Both the position numbers and the translations under genes were made by a program. Of a stretch of DNA of 64,000 nucleotides, positions 2-38,987 are shown piece after piece. A model generated the notes under the pieces. It saw only the letters and a list, made by a program, of their open reading frames with translations, made no database searches and had not been told where the DNA came from. Source of the DNA: Methanosarcina sp. KYL-1 (GTDB lineage: Archaea > Halobacteriota > Methanosarcinia > Methanosarcinales > Methanosarcinaceae); contig NZ_VOUA01000002.1 in NCBI RefSeq assembly GCF_024372725.1, positions 62,001-126,000 on the forward strand, given 5' to 3'. Numbering within the stretch: position 1 is the first letter of the stretch; each line of letters begins with the position of its first letter.

Positions 2-628
2 ATGTTCAGCCGTGAAGAAGAAACCGGTCACTTCGCTACGCCCCGGGAATCTTCCATTGACTTTTATCTGGGATATGTCATGGCTGTGGTCATGGCCGTG
101 GCTTTTGTAGCGCTCGGCAAACTGATTATGTACGGTTCAGGCCAGGAGCTTGTCACCGGAGGCACCGGCTTTAGCCAGCAGCTGGTCAGTCTGTACTCGG
201 CCAACATTGGTGAATGGTCAAAGCCCCTTATTTTGACTGCTGCCTTTTCCACCATGTTCAGCACCACCATGACCTGCATCGATGGTTATCCGCGCTCGCT
301 GGCAGCGAGCTGTACGTTGCTCAGCGACAGCTTTGCCAGGCGCTTCAAGCAGATCTTCCAGCTCAGTATTGTGTTGTCGGTGGTTGCAGCCTGCGTAATC
401 GTGCTGTACTTCGTCCAGAACCTGCTGCAACTGTTGAGCTTTGCCGCCATTATCAGCTTTGTCACCTCTCCGATTCTTGCCTACATCAACTACCGGGTGA
501 TGAACGGCAGCAACGTGCCGGTCGAAGAACGTCCAGGGCCTTTTCTTAAGTTGTTGAGCCTGGGAGGGTTGCTGTTTTTCCTGCTGATGACCGCCGGATT
601 TGTCTACGTGACATTTATCCGGGTCTGA
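2..628 (+). CDS. NRAMP-family divalent metal transporter, C-terminal part
   Basis: This is the C-terminal 208 residues of a proton-coupled Mn2+/Fe2+-type transporter of the inner membrane; the 5' end lies outside the window. About five hydrophobic helices are visible, with the pattern of late NRAMP helices (a TAAFSTMFSTTMT segment followed by DGYPRSL, then two or three helices to the C-terminus). The assignment rests on overall similarity, because the metal-binding motif of the first helix is not in view. Arginine is coded mainly by CGT, CGC and CGG with little AGG, and CTG leucine is frequent. This differs from the methanogen genes further right and suggests acquisition from a bacterium. It lies just outside the tRNA-bounded island. 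Confidence 0.7.
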   Translation: MFSREEETGHFATPRESSIDFYLGYVMAVVMAVAFVALGKLIMYGSGQELVTGGTGFSQQLVSLYSANIGEWSKPLILTAAFSTMFSTTMTCIDGYPRSLAASCTLLSDSFARRFKQIFQLSIVLSVVAACVIVLYFVQNLLQLLSFAAIISFVTSPILAYINYRVMNGSNVPVEERPGPFLKLLSLGGLLFFLLMTAGFVYVTFIRV

Positions 629-745
629 AGGCAGCCAGATGCTTCAAAGAGGTGAAAGCAAGTACGTGAGTAGAAAGAATCCGTGACTCCTACCCCAATT
701 GTAGAATCAAATTTAATTTTAAGACACCCTCTTAGATATACAATA

Positions 746-790
746 TGGGCCCGCTGAGATTCAAACTCAGGACCTCATCCGTGCGAATGT
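746..790 (-). repeat. Decayed tRNA 3' half, candidate attachment site (distal)
   Basis: On the minus strand these 45 bases repeat the anticodon loop to 3' end of the tRNA-Val gene at 3982-4055, in the same orientation, with about five mismatches. The T arm and the 3' acceptor strand are nearly intact, but there is no 5' half. This is the arrangement left when an element integrates into the 3' end of a tRNA gene: the element restores the tRNA at one end and the displaced original 3' half decays at the other. Confidence 0.6.
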
Positions 791-879
791 TTCTTATGAT
801 GTCGAAAATACGTTTGTAAACTTGTATGTATAATTATATACTACATTTTATTTATATACTATATATTATATGGACAGTC

Positions 880-1239
880 ATGCTGCTTAAATTAGGTTGG
901 GAGAGTGATAAGACGGCTGAGAAAAAACCTATCATCAGAGTGTATTTCGCCAAAATCAAGGAAGCATTTTATGACCTCTCTGAAGAGGAAAAGTCTGAGT
1001 TCATGCGTAAGGATCGCGAGCAAATGGACGAGCTAGGCATGAAACTCCTGATGACGATTGACTGCCGCTGGTCTAATGAAGAGTGGGATTTTATCGGGGT
1101 CGAGGAATGGCCAGGTATAGAAGCTCTTGAAGAGCGTGCCAGATTCGAAAAAGAAGAACTGGAAGCATTCAGGTATGCCGAATCGAAGACTTATCTGGGT
1201 ACCGGTACTTTTGGAATTGGTGAATATGGCAAGGAATGA
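880..1239 (+). CDS. Hypothetical protein, island gene
   Basis: I do not recognise this 119-residue protein. It is acidic and soluble, without a signal or membrane segment, and its strand-helix alternation could fit a dimeric alpha/beta-barrel fold. The frame is open from 826, but the first residues there would be a hydrophobic stretch translated from an AT-rich promoter-like sequence, so I prefer the ATG at 880. No clear ribosome binding site is seen. It is the first gene inside the tRNA-bounded island and stands alone, about 190 bases before the next gene. Confidence 0.5.
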   Translation: MLLKLGWESDKTAEKKPIIRVYFAKIKEAFYDLSEEEKSEFMRKDREQMDELGMKLLMTIDCRWSNEEWDFIGVEEWPGIEALEERARFEKEELEAFRYAESKTYLGTGTFGIGEYGKE

Positions 1240-1426
1240 AACCTGAGGAATATCACAACGCAAAGATGCAATAGTCACAGGGTTAGGGTTACTGATCATG
1301 ACTCTGGCCTATTTCGTCGCTGATTTTTTTGCTTTCCAGATCCCTTGAATCACGTTTTCATTTCCTCCATGTGAGAAGAAATCATATAATACAGCAACAC
1401 TATCTCTAAATAATGGAATACCAGGA

Positions 1427-1945
1427 ATGGAATACCAGGACGAAGAGTTTGAAGCCGAAACCTTTAAAGATATTGATCTTACAGACGTATCTTTCAAAAA
1501 TTCAAGGTTTATTGATTGTGATTTTGAAAACTGCAACTTATCAAATGTCGATCTGGATAACACAAAATTTCAGGATATAAGATTCAAGAGCTGCAAAATC
1601 CTGGGATTGGATTTTTCAAAATGTAATGACTTTATACTCGCTTTTGGATTTGAAGATTCTTTTCTTTCCCTGTCAGTATTTTCTAACAAGAATTTAGAAA
1701 ATACGGATTTTACCAATTGCCAGATCTATGACTGTGATTTTGTGAATACTAATCTCAAAAATGCGAATTTTGAAAATTCCGATCTTAAGAACAGTCTCTT
1801 TCAAAATTCGAACCTTAGCTTTACATCATTCAAGAATGCAAAAAATTATGATATAAACCCAAATAACAATTTTCTAAAAAAGACAATATTTTCTATCCCT
1901 GAAGTTATCTCCCTTTTAAATATCTATGACATTGTACTGGAATAA
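1427..1945 (+). CDS. Pentapeptide-repeat protein
   Basis: This 172-residue protein is built almost entirely of tandem pentapeptides with the centre residue F or L, in the A(D/N)LXX style (for example DFENC, NLSNV, DLDNT, DFTNC, NLKNA, NFENS, DLKNS). Such repeats fold into a right-handed quadrilateral beta-helix. Some relatives (Qnr, MfpA) protect DNA gyrase by mimicking DNA, but most have no known role and I infer none here. The start is duplicated: a 14-bp unit beginning ATGGAATACC occurs at 1413 and again at 1427, and only the second copy is in frame. AT content is higher than in the chromosomal genes, in keeping with an island gene. Confidence 0.75.
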   Translation: MEYQDEEFEAETFKDIDLTDVSFKNSRFIDCDFENCNLSNVDLDNTKFQDIRFKSCKILGLDFSKCNDFILAFGFEDSFLSLSVFSNKNLENTDFTNCQIYDCDFVNTNLKNANFENSDLKNSLFQNSNLSFTSFKNAKNYDINPNNNFLKKTIFSIPEVISLLNIYDIVLE

Positions 1946-2070
1946 ACCATTGTTTTAGAGGCTTCTGGTGAAGATTTACTAAAAGAGATTACTTCAATGC
2001 TCGAATAAAATTCTTTGAAAACAATATAGTATATAAATGCCAAGGGTTAGAAATCAAAATATGTGATTAA

Positions 2071-2418
2071 ATGGTAATTATTAGCCTCTTAACTGCATTG
2101 ATTTTAACAATATTAATAGAAGAGACTGTTACTTTTCTTCTCGGGTACAGAAATAAAAACACATTCTTAGTAGTCTCTTTAGTCAACGTAATAACAAATC
2201 CAATTGCAAATTACATTGTAATGGCAAACAATATTTTCAATATCATAAAGCCCAATATTTCACTGGTAATCATTCTTGAGGTCTTGATTGTTTGCATTGA
2301 GTGGAAAATACTGGAATACGCTCTTCCAGGTCAGGAAAAACAATCCTATTTATTCCTTTCAATAATAATGAACCTCGCTTCTTTTTTAACAGGAATAATT
2401 TTATTCGGCCTGCCATAG
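2071..2418 (+). CDS. Small integral membrane protein, island gene
   Basis: This 115-residue protein has three hydrophobic segments (about residues 3-24, 31-52 and 62-80) and a fourth near the C-terminus (94-114). The second segment holds a VNVITNPIANY stretch, and an acidic EE pair sits in the first. I do not recognise the family. It ends 31 bases before the MFS permease gene, which is followed 28 bases later by another small membrane protein, so the three may form one transcript. A partner role with the permease is only inference. Confidence 0.55.
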   Translation: MVIISLLTALILTILIEETVTFLLGYRNKNTFLVVSLVNVITNPIANYIVMANNIFNIIKPNISLVIILEVLIVCIEWKILEYALPGQEKQSYLFLSIIMNLASFLTGIILFGLP

Positions 2419-2449
2419 GCATATATATCAAAATCAAGCAAAATAGCTT

Positions 2450-3490
2450 ATGCCCTCTGATTTTACAAAAAATCTCACAGTTTACGGGTTATCTCACGCA
2501 GCAATTGATGCAAGTTGTGCTGCAGTGGCATTTTCATTATTATCTTCAAAATCAATAACTGATGAATACTTTATCCAGCTAGTCGTCATGTATAATGTTA
2601 TTGCTTTCGGCTCCCAGACTTTAGTCGGCCTTCTGGTAGATAAGTATAGATGTCCAAAACTCTCAGCAATTTCCGGTTCTACTATAACAGCATCAGCAAT
2701 ACCTGTCTCTTTTCTATCGCCCCTGTATGCAATAATCCTTGCAGGCATCGGAAATGCCCTATTTCATGTCGGCGGCGGGACAATAAGTCTTAACCTGACA
2801 AAAAATAAGGCAGCATCACCAGGGATATTTGTAGCTCCCGGAGCATTGGGACTTTTAATAGGAACGCTTTACGGAAAAAGCGGATCCTTTACAGCCTGGC
2901 CGTTGCTGATAATAATCGCTATTCTCTGTGCCCTCATGTATTATACGAAATATCCGGAAATAAATTACAACACAGACGAGAAAATAAACACAAATTATTT
3001 TGAATCAATCATACTCTTGCTTCTAATGACAATCGTAGCAAGATCAGTAATCGGCTCAGTAGTCGTTTTGCCCTGGAAATCCGACATCTTTCTATTAGTA
3101 ACACTAACCTCAGGTATAGTCCTGGGAAAAGCTTTCGGTGGAATTGTAGGAGATAAATACGGCTGGCAAAAGGTAGGAGTCATATCTCTTTTAATATCTG
3201 CTCCACTACTCGCATTTGGAGCACCAATACCGGAGGCAGCAATACTCGGAATTTTCCTCTTCAATTTTACAATGCCGATTACTCTGGTAGCAATCTCAAA
3301 TACACTTCCAGGAAGACCAGGCTTCTCATTTGGCTTGACGACACTGGCATTAATAATCGGAGTTCTCCCAACATACGCAGGCGCAGGCAGTTTCCTGTCA
3401 CAAAGTCCTTCAGTATTCGCGATAATCATCAGTTCAGCAATAGTCCTGTATTATGCACTATCTTTATATGGCAGAAAAATAAATGCCTAA
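2450..3490 (+). CDS. MFS-type permease
   Basis: This 346-residue polytopic protein has about ten to eleven membrane segments and the two-halves layout of the major facilitator superfamily. The loop after the second helix reads LVGLLVDKYR, the usual MFS G-x-x-x-D-R/K-x-G/R-type motif, and GGIVGDKYG sits at the equivalent place in the second half. A glycine-rich GNALFHVGGG segment resembles drug/fosmidomycin-type exporters, but the substrate cannot be read from sequence. It is somewhat shorter than typical 12-helix MFS proteins (about 400 residues). Neighbours are two small membrane proteins on the same strand. Confidence 0.75.
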   Translation: MPSDFTKNLTVYGLSHAAIDASCAAVAFSLLSSKSITDEYFIQLVVMYNVIAFGSQTLVGLLVDKYRCPKLSAISGSTITASAIPVSFLSPLYAIILAGIGNALFHVGGGTISLNLTKNKAASPGIFVAPGALGLLIGTLYGKSGSFTAWPLLIIIAILCALMYYTKYPEINYNTDEKINTNYFESIILLLLMTIVARSVIGSVVVLPWKSDIFLLVTLTSGIVLGKAFGGIVGDKYGWQKVGVISLLISAPLLAFGAPIPEAAILGIFLFNFTMPITLVAISNTLPGRPGFSFGLTTLALIIGVLPTYAGAGSFLSQSPSVFAIIISSAIVLYYALSLYGRKINA

Positions 3491-3518
3491 AAAATAAACG
3501 AAAGTTGAAGGTAAAAAT

Positions 3519-3737
3519 ATGAAAAAAGCAAATCTTATCATAATATCATTGTGCCTAAGCGTATCCATTTTACCATCAGTCGTTCGTGCAGATGTGGTTT
3601 CTCCAGGGGCTACTGCTGCCTTCCTATTGATTATTATAGCACCCATAATTGGAATAATTGCCCTAATTGCCTGGCTGGTGATTAGAAAAATTAAAAAAGA
3701 TTCTGATTCTGAAAGAGAGCCAGAAATCAGATCCTAA
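3519..3737 (+). CDS. Small membrane protein with N-terminal signal-like helix
   Basis: This 72-residue protein starts with a Lys-containing N-terminus and a hydrophobic helix ending near SVVRA, followed by a short loop and a second long hydrophobic helix (about 33-56), then a basic and acidic tail. It could be a cleaved, secreted and anchored protein or a two-helix membrane protein. It follows the MFS gene by 28 bases and is the last gene of the island before the tRNA. No family recognised. Confidence 0.5.
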   Translation: MKKANLIIISLCLSVSILPSVVRADVVSPGATAAFLLIIIAPIIGIIALIAWLVIRKIKKDSDSEREPEIRS

Positions 3738-3981
3738 TGCTACAGAAAAAATTTTTCAAGGATACTGGTTATATTCAGAGGAATAATAGTTCGAATTGTA
3801 ATTATACTTCTTGTTTTAGTATCAAGAATATTTTATCTGAGTTATATTTCCTTCTGAGCCTACTGGAAAATTAATTCCTGTTTTAAAAAGATCAGGTCGT
3901 GTCCCTTGAAGCAAGAATCGAAGCATTAGAAAAAGAAGTCTATAAAACCTCTATATCCGAAAAGAAAGAAGATATAAGAAG

Positions 3982-4055
3982 TGGGCCCGCTGAGATTCGA
4001 ACTCAGGACCTCCGCCGTGTGAAGGCGACGTCATAACCGTCTAGACCACGAGCCC
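3982..4055 (-). tRNA. tRNA-Val (anticodon CAC)
   Basis: A full cloverleaf is visible on the minus strand: acceptor GGGCTCG pairs with CGGGCCC (with a T-G pair), the anticodon loop TTCACAC carries CAC between five-pair stems, and the T arm CTGAG-TTCGAAT-CTCAG is perfect. The discriminator is A and CCA is not encoded. Its 3' half is repeated at 746-790, making this the likely integration site of the island to its left. Confidence 0.95.
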
Positions 4056-4320: not shown

Positions 4321-5085
4321 ATGATCGAAATCCTGAAAATCCTCTTTGCAATGCCCTTTTTGCTTTACTCCTGCTACTCCGACCTCAAGGCCCGCAGGGT
4401 TTCAAACAGGGTCTGGAAGTACATGCTTGCCTCTGGCTCTGTCTTTATACTCTACGAGCTTTTTACCGGTGGGCTTCCCTATCTCAAGGCCCTCCTCTTT
4501 TCGGGGGTGGTCGTTTTTGTCTCAGTCTATATCCTCTTCCAGCTTGGGGCTTTCGGAGGAGGGGATGCAAAAGGGCTGATCGTGCTTTCCCTCATCTTTC
4601 CCCTCTATCCGGTTTTCCGCCTGGGAGAAGAGTTCTATCCCCTGCTCGGGCTTCCTCCAATAGGGCTTTTCACGTTCACGGTTTTTGGAAATGCCCTTCT
4701 CCTTACCGTCCTGGTCCCGCTCGGGATGTTCTGCTACAATCTCCTGCATTTCTCTCCTGAGATGCTCAAAAAACCCCTTTACATGTTCATAGGGTACAGG
4801 ACCGAGGTATCTTCCCTGAAATATAAGGAACATCTGGGCCTGATGGAGAAATTCGAGCTAACCGAGGAGGGAACAATAAAGAGGAGCTTTGCCCGGACAG
4901 GGCTTGACTTCAATGCAAACCTGAAGCCCGAACTTGAAGAATACGCAAAAAAAGGGTTGATAGGAAAGGAAGTCTGGGTAACTCCAGGCCTTCCGTTCAT
5001 GCTTTCAATTACTGCAGGCTTTGTTGCAGCAGTAGTTTTCGGGGATTTGCTCTTTTACATGGTAATGTACTTTATGATATACTGA
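4321..5085 (+). CDS. A24-family prepilin/preflagellin signal peptidase
   Basis: This membrane aspartic peptidase cleaves class III signal peptides of archaeal pilins or archaellins. Both catalytic aspartates are visible: one in YSDLKARRVSN near residue 20 and one in the GxGD-type motif GGGDAKG near residue 80. About six membrane helices are present, with a soluble 70-residue insert (about residues 155-225) before the last two. The length of 254 residues fits FlaK/PibD/EppA-like enzymes; which substrate class it serves is not clear. The stop codon is embedded in the first unit of a 17-bp tandem repeat. Confidence 0.85.
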   Translation: MIEILKILFAMPFLLYSCYSDLKARRVSNRVWKYMLASGSVFILYELFTGGLPYLKALLFSGVVVFVSVYILFQLGAFGGGDAKGLIVLSLIFPLYPVFRLGEEFYPLLGLPPIGLFTFTVFGNALLLTVLVPLGMFCYNLLHFSPEMLKKPLYMFIGYRTEVSSLKYKEHLGLMEKFELTEEGTIKRSFARTGLDFNANLKPELEEYAKKGLIGKEVWVTPGLPFMLSITAGFVAAVVFGDLLFYMVMYFMIY

Positions 5086-5278
5086 AATTCATAGTGCACT
5101 GAAGTTCATAGTGCACTGAAGTTCATAGTGCACTGAAATTCATAGTGCACTGAAGTTCATAGTGCACTGAAGTTCATAGTGCACTGAAGTTCATAGTGCA
5201 CTGAAGTTCATAGTGCACTGAAGTTCATAGTGCACTGAAGTTCATAGTGCACTGAAGTTCATAGTGCACTGAAATCCC
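5082..5278 (+). repeat. Tandem repeat, 17 bp x 11
   Basis: Eleven near-perfect head-to-tail copies of CTGAAGTTCATAGTGCA (variants carry ATTC for GTTC) run from 5082 to 5268, plus a partial copy. Each unit holds the palindrome GTGCAC across the junction. The first unit contains the stop codon of the A24 peptidase gene. Confidence 0.95.
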
Positions 5279-35683: not shown

Positions 35684-36178
35684 TTAGCTGTCCTGCCCCA
35701 GTTTGAACCCTTTTTCCTGGCTTGAAACCCCTATGAAAGGTTTTGGGGCTGCCAGGTTCATGGGATGTTTTTGCCTTACCTTTCTTTTTTTTGCAAAGGT
35801 GATCTCATCAAGGGGCCTTGCCCAGATAGTGTCGAGTTCCTCTGCCCGGGCCGAAGGCACGCACCTGACTCCTACCTGCAGGGAAGTTATGACATAAGGG
35901 TTGTCAGTGCTGGCTTTTCCTGCGTCCAGGACGATTTCTTCGTCTAAGGAAAGGACTTCTCCGGCATCAATATTTACCCAGCGGCTGAAGGGGCGCTCGA
36001 TCCTATTTACATAGACCCTTACGCTCACATTCTCATGTGTTTCCAAATGCGGGGCAACGTATACGAGCCCACATTCCAGGCAGTGGACGAGGGGGCTTTT
36101 TCCCAGTTTAATGATTTCGTGAGGGACTTTTTCCCCGGGGGAACATGAGGGGCATTCGATTCTGGTATCCTGCGTCAT
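35684..36178 (-). CDS. Second HVO_0476-type zinc-finger protein (paralog)
   Basis: This 164-residue protein shares the N-terminal CPSCSPGEKVPHEI...CLECG ribbon and the following strands with its neighbour (both have the PHE motif and a [20 protein letters not shown] segment). It lacks the extended C-terminal half. It looks like a tandem gene duplication with later divergence. Function unknown. Confidence 0.72.
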   Translation of the reverse strand: MTQDTRIECPSCSPGEKVPHEIIKLGKSPLVHCLECGLVYVAPHLETHENVSVRVYVNRIERPFSRWVNIDAGEVLSLDEEIVLDAGKASTDNPYVITSLQVGVRCVPSARAEELDTIWARPLDEITFAKKRKVRQKHPMNLAAPKPFIGVSSQEKGFKLGQDS

Positions 36179-36336
36179 GGCAAATCAATACCTGGATCTT
36201 ATTTATTTATATTTATACGTTCCGTAAAGCTTTTTAAATAATACTAGGAATAATACTTCCTCTTTCCGATTGATTCTCCTGTTATCAAAAGTTTTATTAT
36301 AAGGAAGTGCATAGTTTAACATCTCATTATTGAGAC

Positions 36337-36381
36337 GCATCTCAAAATTAAGGTAAAGGCGCATCTCTAAATTAAGGTAAA
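36337..36381 (+). promoter_or_regulatory. Tandem 21-bp repeat upstream of rbkR, candidate operator
   Basis: Two copies of a 21-base sequence starting GCATCTC and ending TTAAGGTAAA (36337-36357 and 36361-36381) differ at one position, with a 24-base period. They lie directly ahead of the RbkR start. RbkR is known to bind DNA sites near riboflavin genes, so autoregulation through this repeat is plausible. Confidence 0.5.
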
Positions 36382-36386
36382 AAAGG

Positions 36387-37073
36387 GTGCCGACAGTGCC
36401 GGACATCGAATACCTGAAGAAACTTGCCCTCATGGGGGCAGTGAATAAAACCATCAAGATCTCTTCGAGTGAGTTTCAAAAGCATACGGGGGCCAGCTCC
36501 AAAACCGCAGCAAGAAAATTAAAACAGCTGGAGGAGGAGCGGCTGATCGAAAGGACGATTGTCCCCGGTGGCCAGTTGATAAAAATGACAGAAAAAGGGC
36601 TTGAAATCCTCAAAAATGAGTATGCCGAATACAGTCAGATCTTTTCCCCCGAACCCGAGACCTTCGAGCTTGAGGGGGTTGTGCTTACGGGCCTGGGTGA
36701 AGGGCAGTACTATATAAATATTCCGGGTTACAGGAAGCAGTTTGAAGAAATGCTGAATTTTGTGCCTTTCCCGGGCACCCTGAACTTGCAGCTTACTGAG
36801 AACAGTTCTGCACTTAGGGGAAGGTTAAGGGAAATGCCTGCCGTCCGCATCCACGGATTCAGTGACGGAGAACGCACTTACGGGGGAGGGAAATGCTATC
36901 CCGTAAGAGTCGGCGGCATAGAGGCTGCGGTAGTGGTCCCCGAGAGGACGCACTATCCGGAAGATTTGATTGAAATAATAGCTCCGATAAAGCTCAGGGA
37001 CGCCCTGGGTTTAAAAGACGGAGACCGGACTGCAATACAGGTGCAAAAAAAGGATATGGAGGGCCAGGAATGA
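36387..37073 (+). CDS. rbkR: Bifunctional riboflavin regulator / CTP-dependent riboflavin kinase
   Basis: The N-terminal 85 residues form a winged helix (SSSEFQKHTGASSKTAARKLKQL), and residues about 90-225 form the archaeal DUF120 riboflavin kinase that makes FMN using CTP. Kinase motifs visible are GLGEGQYYI, PFPGTLNL and YPEDLIEIIAP, ending KDGD. The start is GTG 36387 or, nine bases on, GTG 36396. The stop overlaps the ATG of ribB by four bases, so both are translated together. This pairing with a riboflavin gene supports the dual role known for RbkR. Confidence 0.9.
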   Translation: MPTVPDIEYLKKLALMGAVNKTIKISSSEFQKHTGASSKTAARKLKQLEEERLIERTIVPGGQLIKMTEKGLEILKNEYAEYSQIFSPEPETFELEGVVLTGLGEGQYYINIPGYRKQFEEMLNFVPFPGTLNLQLTENSSALRGRLREMPAVRIHGFSDGERTYGGGKCYPVRVGGIEAAVVVPERTHYPEDLIEIIAPIKLRDALGLKDGDRTAIQVQKKDMEGQE

Positions 37074-37813
37074 GCGAAACTGCGATTTACGACTGCCTGC
37101 GTTACGAGAACGAAAATATCAACAGAGCTCTTGAGGCCTTAAAGGCCGGAAAAATGATCCAGATCTATGATTCGGATTCCAGAGAAGGGGAAACCGATCT
37201 GGTGATCCCTGCAAAGGCGGTCAGCTACAGGGACGTTCAGTGGATGCGAAAAGACGCCGGAGGCCTGATCTGTGTGGCCGTGGACCCTGTTGCATCAAGG
37301 CAGCTCGGGCTGCCCTTTATGGCAGAACTTGTCCGGGAAGCCGGCAAAGCCAGCGAAGCCCTCAGGGAAGTCGTGGAAAAGACAGGAGACCTCCAGTACG
37401 ATTCCCATTCTTCTTTTTCCATCTGGGTAAACCACAGGGAAACCAGGACAGGGATCCCTGACAATGAACGGGCTCTTACCATCCGGAAAATAGGGGAAAT
37501 TGCAGAGAAGTCCCTTTCAGGGACAGGAGTACGTTTCGGGGACGAGTTCCGCACTCCCGGACATGTGGCGCTCCTCAGGGCTGCCGACGGGCTTCTGGAC
37601 GAACGCAGGGGCCAGACCGAACTTTCCGTTGCCCTTGCCAGGATGGCCGGGGTCACGCCGGTGATGGTTGTCTGCGAAATGCTGGATGATGAAAACGGAA
37701 AAGCCCTTTCCAAAACAGATGCAAGGGAATACGGCGAAGAACGCGGACTTGTCTTCCTTGAAGGGCAGGAAATAGTGGACGCCTACATGCTGTGGGCAGG
37801 CTCGGAGTGCTGA
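37070..37813 (+). CDS. ribB: 3,4-dihydroxy-2-butanone 4-phosphate synthase
   Basis: RibB converts ribulose 5-phosphate to the four-carbon unit of riboflavin. The 247-residue protein has the metal and substrate loop DSREGETDLVIPA (near residue 38), RKDAGGLICVAV, TPGHVALLRA-type PGHVALLRAADG and TPVMVVCEML. It is a stand-alone RibB without a GTP cyclohydrolase II domain. It is coupled to rbkR by an ATGA overlap. Confidence 0.95.
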   Translation: MSETAIYDCLRYENENINRALEALKAGKMIQIYDSDSREGETDLVIPAKAVSYRDVQWMRKDAGGLICVAVDPVASRQLGLPFMAELVREAGKASEALREVVEKTGDLQYDSHSSFSIWVNHRETRTGIPDNERALTIRKIGEIAEKSLSGTGVRFGDEFRTPGHVALLRAADGLLDERRGQTELSVALARMAGVTPVMVVCEMLDDENGKALSKTDAREYGEERGLVFLEGQEIVDAYMLWAGSEC

Positions 37814-38090
37814 AGTTCCCCACCCTTCCACTTTCTCTTTTCTTTTCCTTCTCTTCACTTCTGTCAGGCTTATTTCCTTTTTTAGTCTGTTCACCCTTTC
37901 TTTTTCCTCGATCCTTCTATTTACAAGCGGTAAGCGTATCATGATATAAGGTGAAAAGTAGTATATTATAAGGATAAATATAAGGGTAAATTCTGGCTGA
38001 AGGGTAAATTGGAGCTGCTTGGGGCTTCTTTCCGTTTCTCCGTTCGGTATCCCGGCTCCGGGCAGCTTTGAACCCAGGAGGTCCCGGTCT

Positions 38091-38987
38091 ATGCTGAGCA
38101 GGTTCAAAAAAATCCAGCAGGTTCTTCTCTATGTGCTCTTCCTGAACCTTGCCGTAGCCTTTGCCAAAATCGCCTACGGGACTTTTACCAGCACCCTGAG
38201 CATGACCGCGGACGGCTATCATTCCCTTTTTGACGGAATTTCCAACATTGTGGGGATGGTAGGGATCTTTATTGCTTCCAGGCCACCGGACAGGGAACAC
38301 CCTTACGGGCACCAGAAATACGAAACCTTTGCCGCGATTTTCATAGCGCTTCTCCTTATCTTCGTAGGCTTTGAGATTTTTCAAAGTGCGCTCGAAAGGT
38401 TTCTTGTCCGGAACGTGCCCGAAGTCACTTCCCTGAGCTTTCTTGTGATGCTCGGGACCATGGGCATCAACTACCTTGTCACGCGCTACGAGTTGAGACA
38501 GGGCATATCCCTCAAAAGCCAGGTCCTGATTGCAGATTCAATGCATACGAGAAGTGATATCTACGTCTCCCTCTCGGTCATAATAAGCCTGGCCGCCTCA
38601 AAGCTCGGTTTTCCCCTCCTGGACCCTGTTGTGGCTCTCCTGATCTCTCTTGTGATTCTCAGGGCCGGATACCGGATAATAAGGCAGAGTTCCGAAACCC
38701 TCCTTGATATGTCCAGGCTAGACGAGGACGAGGTCTGCGAGCTGGTGCTGGGGGTGGAAGGGGTGCTGGGCTGCCACAAGGTCCGGACCAGGGGAAGTAT
38801 AGGGGATATCCGGATTGACATGCACCTGCTCCTCCGGCCTGACATGCCGATTGAAGAGGCCCATCTCATTTCCCACAACGTCAGCAAACTCCTGAAAGCT
38901 GAGTACGAGGGGGTTTCCGAGGTTATTGTCCATATCGAGCCTGCCACTCCTCTACCCCAAGAATCAAATAGCAAAAAAACGAGTTAA
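38091..38987 (+). CDS. Cation diffusion facilitator (CDF) metal exporter
   Basis: This 298-residue membrane antiporter exports Zn2+, Fe2+, Mn2+ or similar. Six membrane helices carry the two metal-site motifs [12 protein letters not shown] (helix 2) and [12 protein letters not shown] (helix 5). The C-terminal soluble domain (from about residue 205) is the ferredoxin-like metal-sensing fold. The start is fixed by AGGAGG at 38075 with ATG at 38091; the frame is open further upstream, but that part is not protein-like. aroC follows five bases after the stop. Confidence 0.9.

Follow-up and report, generated by a model that had tools for sequence, protein, structure and literature searches.

An integrase-less cargo cassette beside tRNA-Val(CAC) in Methanosarcina, one unit of a genus-wide array and a probable derivative of an element with a suicidal integrase

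The protein family PF16795 has been tied to suicidal integrases, and the Methanosarcinales are listed for the element pT26-2 (PMC8371274). That integrated elements of this type are excised by an intact integrase acting in trans has been published (PMC8371274), and tandem integration at a single site is known in archaea (PMC6563490; PMC8371274). The locus described here, which lies in a 64,000-nucleotide stretch of a Methanosarcina genome (hereafter the window), resembles pT26-2 and SSV in several respects: attP within the integrase gene, a tRNA target, an integrase split into int(N) and int(C) and, as reported, excision in trans by related intact integrases. It differs from them in that the island in the window and most of the related units are small tandem cargo cassettes at one tRNA gene, which have lost int(C) and the replication genes.

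The closest described arrangement is that of the Dehalococcoides ssrA islands: tandem units with exchangeable cargo and 3'-end repeats at one RNA gene, many of them devoid of integration genes (fifteen lack integration modules and were called possible cis-mobilizable elements; PMC3146451). Those islands are bacterial, have a serine recombinase module and 20-bp repeats, and recombinase splitting is not reported for them, whereas the integrase concerned here is an archaeal, suicidal tyrosine integrase. Integron arrays and CALINs likewise comprise small cargo units between repeated recombination sites, with no recombinase in the array and one privileged entry site, but neither IntI nor attC hairpins are known at the present locus, where the site is a 46-base tRNA half. 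Tycheposons, described in Prochlorococcus, encode their own tyrosine recombinase. Together with phage satellites they resemble our island as helper-dependent, tRNA-linked cargo elements (PMC11389934, for part of this likeness); they differ from it in that we saw no capsid or packaging evidence in the window island, among whose genes Pfam and NCBIfam profiles detected no packaging, capsid-remodelling or own recombinase gene. Suicidal integrases, CIME-like islands and tandem accretion are all of known kinds. Literature searches on this Methanosarcina locus, with partial coverage, returned nothing specific, and a genus-wide array of small exchangeable cassettes in archaea was not described in the part of the literature that was searchable.

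The intact tRNA-Val(CAC), which is the integration target, was located by ARAGORN at 3981..4055 on the minus strand; its 46-base 3' half, from the 3' end through the anticodon loop (3981..4026, listed on the plus strand), constitutes the recombination core. A displaced copy of this half at 745..790 (plus strand) forms the left boundary of the island and is identical to the core at 39/46 bases, compared to 28/46 for the second-best site in the 64-kb window and a maximum of 31 in 100 shuffles. A repeat finder paired 734-787 with 3970-4023 (85%). The displaced fragment has the orientation produced by integration into the 3' end of the tRNA gene, the island being bounded, as tRNA-integrated genomic islands are, by a direct repeat of the tRNA 3' end on the far side and by the intact tRNA on the other. 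The island is AT-rich, with a GC content of 36.1% versus 51.0% on its left and 50.3% for 4056-64000. A sequence-only reading of the window had called attention to the direct repeat, to its orientation and to the AT-rich DNA in between, all of which our analysis confirms. That the repeat arose by chance or by a plain partial duplication of the tRNA, with no link to mobile DNA, has nothing in its favour except the degeneracy of the copy; it is refuted by the margin over the shuffles, by the arrays present throughout the genus and by the integrase relic at the junction, and its probability is negligible.

The island carries five genes, all on the plus strand. They encode a soluble protein of family F14/F16 with no Pfam or NCBIfam family (about 877..1239), a pentapeptide-repeat protein (1427..1945; PF00805, E 6e-21), a hydrophobic 115-aa membrane protein with no family match (open frame 2071..2418), a 346-aa MFS-like permease (2450..3490) whose match to PF07690 is weak and sub-threshold (E 0.007), and a 72-aa protein with signal-like and transmembrane stretches (3519..3737), for which PF11346 (DUF3149) barely passes the cut-off (E 2.7e-5), its remaining profile matches being weak. 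The two window proteins tried against PADLOC families gave no match. These are the open frames of the earlier description, albeit with a permease that amounts to a sub-threshold match. Neither int(C) nor a replication gene occurs in the island, and the PF16795 catalytic domain, present in four intact relatives, is absent from it. The claim that the island has no integrase or replication gene is thus right as regards a working integrase and replication, but it missed an int(N) relic: an open frame (3888..4026, plus strand) reads into the core SGPAEIRTQDLRRV, and 23 of its codons (3905-3973) are 87% identical to int(N) residues 73-95 (E 1e-9). The island has kept this int(N) piece, both cores and the five cargo genes, and in structure it corresponds to a CIME, an att-bounded unit without integrase or transfer genes.

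The same genome has a second displaced tRNA fragment 4.1 kb beyond the left edge of the window, at C2:57896, and because of it the DNA left of 745 is read as a neighbouring cassette (C2:57896-62745). The part of this cassette that falls in the window (2..628, plus strand) encodes the C-terminal part of a 440-aa transporter-like protein, the full ORF being present in the genome; homologues exist in G003 and G044, and a Pfam search with the in-window part found no match. Over their first 616-638 bases, counted from the core, the two cassettes have 88% identity, and the soluble protein encoded at 877-1239 has a paralogue in the adjoining cassette as well as a relative in G015.

When 40 genomes were first searched with the tRNA plus flanking DNA, many extra partial matches came up that end at one position of the tRNA, and the DNA 3' of tRNA-Val(CAC) was read in 25 Methanosarcina loci. 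Displaced 3'-half fragments, 56 in total, were present in 20/25 loci, and each of them is oriented like the tRNA copy; the fragment at 745-790 shares its register and orientation with the 55 others (20 genomes). Core copies numbered 84 on one strand and 0 on the opposite strand, and the identity of the displaced copies stops between core positions 36 and 46. The fragments are spaced 0.9 to 29 kb apart (median 3.2 kb), and 51/56 units do not exceed 6.2 kb. A unit often comprises several genes, which may face either way, and the cargo pool includes restriction-modification, toxin-antitoxin, metabolic and surface genes. These sequences show cassettes stacked in one direction at the tRNA across the genus, and the window island is one unit of this array. 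The sequence-only reading had taken it for a small solitary island, overlooking the fragment at C2:57896 and the cassette in the left flank. Its expectation that the five genes would not be found at this place in other species was borne out, but the empty site it anticipated was not: no Methanosarcina locus examined has a pristine one. Cores farther from the tRNA were not significantly more decayed (Spearman 0.17, p 0.22), so that layering by age was rejected and a simple layered history is unsupported. Outside the genus, 15 genomes from ten other genera of the order gave only full tRNAs or short T-arm matches. A classical PF00589 integrase was sought within the arrays of 15 genomes and not found; the linked integrase is PF16795.

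Intact elements with such an integrase were found in 4/31 genomes of the genus, at tRNA-Val(CAC) in G019 (29.0 kb) and G043 (15.8 kb) and at another tRNA-Val gene in G009 (11.9 kb) and G023 (18.8 kb), and one end of each is occupied by the PF16795 integrase (E about 1e-37 to 1e-39). The three annotated elements encode primase-like replication proteins (NrS-1-like, AEP-TOTE and Prim-Pol/D5), the intact Methanosarcina parents differing from pT26-2 and SSV in the primases with which they replicate. When the elements were closed into virtual circles, int(N), the tRNA core and int(C) formed a single open frame of 420-437 codons in 4/4 cases (G019, G043, G009b, G023b); on the G019 circle it stays open only if the core is the tRNA-side allele (TGA to TGT, with compensatory T-stem changes). 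The single frame on the circle shows that the integrase gene contains attP and that integration splits it, leaving int(N) beside the tRNA and int(C) at the far fragment. With attP inside int, as read from the frame of the four relatives, and int(N) beside the restored tRNA, as seen in the relic at 3905-3973, the arrangement is of the SSV/pT26-2 suicidal type. Among named relatives the pT26-2 integrase comes closest (34% identity), and in it a tRNA-encoded GGIRTRDLR stretch occupies the same place, before the catalytic part. A conserved protein of about 97 aa at the tRNA end, without Pfam or NCBIfam family, was considered as an accessory gene and rejected: the rejoined frame identifies it as int(N).

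The genome of the window has no intact PF16795 integrase of this kind, and therefore no helper is there now. A search of IMG/VR with integrase peptide patterns for a free circular form found nothing, and plasmid and phage collections gave only pT26-2, SSV, Archaeoglobus relatives and similar elements. A second tRNA-Val gene (core ...GGATCCCCGCCGTGTAAAGGC; L095, L096) is a further target of the same element family and the site of the intact elements in G009 and G023; beside it, the genome of the window contains a weak int(N)-like match (C12:38431-38632, E 0.003). Candidate Res and Mod genes of a type III restriction-like kind, next to helicase-like genes, are present in the 29-kb element of G019 (L094 11068-20000, into L045).

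Traces of the split integrase recur along the arrays. To the left of many cores lies coding sequence for the end of the 97-aa protein, which reads into the core; on the right-hand side of many displaced cores, the encoded sequence is an N-terminal recombinase-like stretch. int(N) relics were detected in 49/83 tRNA-side (left) arms versus 0/131 controls, and int(C) relics in 20/59 far-side (right) arms versus 1/131 controls; one int(C) piece is in the neighbouring cassette of the genome analysed here (C2:58778-58918). Such relics of both ends would be expected if the cassettes were complete suicidal-integrase elements that integrated once, were trapped (suicidal integrases trap elements; PMC8371274), lost their integrase and replication genes in place and are now inherited vertically, a scenario with which the common gene order of close pairs such as G016/G022 also agrees. 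However, 39/59 right arms have no int(C) relic and several begin with cargo sequence directly at the core, which erosion in place could produce only by repeated deletions ending there.

The distribution of sister cassettes bears on the same point. In G003 an additional cassette of 2.6 kb that lacks int(C) (35796-38431) separates a restriction-modification cassette from the tRNA. G012 has this restriction-modification cassette directly beside the tRNA and is without the additional one, as resolved to the base: the left arms align, identity breaks within the core at 36-37, and the tRNA side realigns at once. G042 and G008 have in common a two-gene cassette without integrase gene that is identical at 2391/2403 positions from core to core (99.5%), whereas identity falls to 658/717 (91.8%; p 2e-27) over the 0.7 kb on its left and to 82% in the chromosomal flank; this cassette adjoins the tRNA in G008 and is followed by two more cassettes in G042. 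Furthermore, the acetyltransferase and YggS cassettes occur in G003/G008 in the order opposite to that in G009/G015, and a type I restriction-modification locus is part of a cassette in G003 and G012 but is situated beyond the cores in G000, G008 and G009. Occupied and empty pairs were thus seen for sister cassettes (G003/G012, G042/G008) and none was found for the window island, whose nearest signal of exchange is the pentapeptide gene (1427-1945), 93.3% identical in nucleotides to a gene of the G015 array versus 80.1% in the chromosomal flank. Taken together, these comparisons show that integrase-less cassettes related to the island have inserted precisely at the core and been exchanged between species, for which pure decay in place would be insufficient; with the exact exchange, the occupied and empty pair and the reversed order against it, we judge it unlikely. 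The sequence-only reading had left the choice between a decayed element, a satellite and a cargo cassette, and what stands is a cassette from a suicidal-integrase element of which only the int(N) end is left.

The main rival to mobilisation in trans is homologous recombination, which after an integrase-mediated arrival would move and swap the cassettes through their repeated cores and arms. The G042/G008 exchange fits it at least as well, because the stretch of identity reaches 12 bases or more beyond the left edge of the core and takes in the mutations of the left core, which an integrase crossover at the right end of the core would not carry. Mixed modules point the same way, namely a toxin-antitoxin pair found with two partners and the first 600 bases common to the window's own two cassettes. 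On the other hand, the cores are only 46 bases long and the arms have diverged, and in the G003/G012 pair a whole cassette was gained with a new core at the tRNA, for which homologous recombination alone needs a core-bearing circle. We regard it as unlikely.

Our favoured interpretation, which we consider likely, is that the island is a cargo cassette without integrase, that it belongs to the array downstream of tRNA-Val(CAC) and derives from an element with a suicidal integrase, and that such units are recombined in trans by the intact integrases of superinfecting relatives. The integrase of such a relative would recombine two adjacent cores and free a circle comprising the cargo and one core, which would then insert at the tRNA-Val gene of that cell or of a different one, reached perhaps by way of a virus, conjugation or natural uptake. 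The newest cassette would enter beside the tRNA, with an inner core as a possible occasional entry point. Through this mobilisation, methanogens of one genus would have a concrete route for sharing small sets of genes at one constant place in the chromosome. It is also relevant to a puzzle stated in the literature on archaea, namely how elements survive when integration destroys their integrase: derivatives of suicidal elements may endure as cargo that has no integrase but could still be mobilised by related intact ones. More tentatively, and with somewhat less than even confidence, the whole may be viewed as an integron-like system built on a tRNA gene, with tRNA-Val(CAC) as entry site, its 46-base 3' half as cassette site, and the integrases of superinfecting suicidal elements shuffling in trans a cargo pool common to the genus.

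Several further features of the arrays and of the window were recorded. In the arrays of G003 (35796) and G015 (36125) (L036/L037, L035), homologous cassettes meet the core about 50 bases apart in the same arm; the cassette junction is therefore not fixed, which may be a hint of how cargo is captured. In G012 and G003 (L041 4959-16640; L036/L037), a cassette close to the tRNA and bounded by cores contains an entire type I restriction-modification system along with a Schlafen AlbA_2 protein; in G000, G008 and G009 this system is situated in the chromosomal flank. The tRNA-adjoining cassette of G004 (L042 1262-5229) encodes a pentapeptide membrane protein and a KAP P-loop NTPase ending in pentapeptide repeats, a pair that resembles the QatA/PifA defence models. 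Finally, a 17-base unit (tgaagttcatagtgcac) is repeated head to tail about eleven times at 5085-5270 of the window, after an archaeal type IV leader peptidase gene (PF06847/PF01478).
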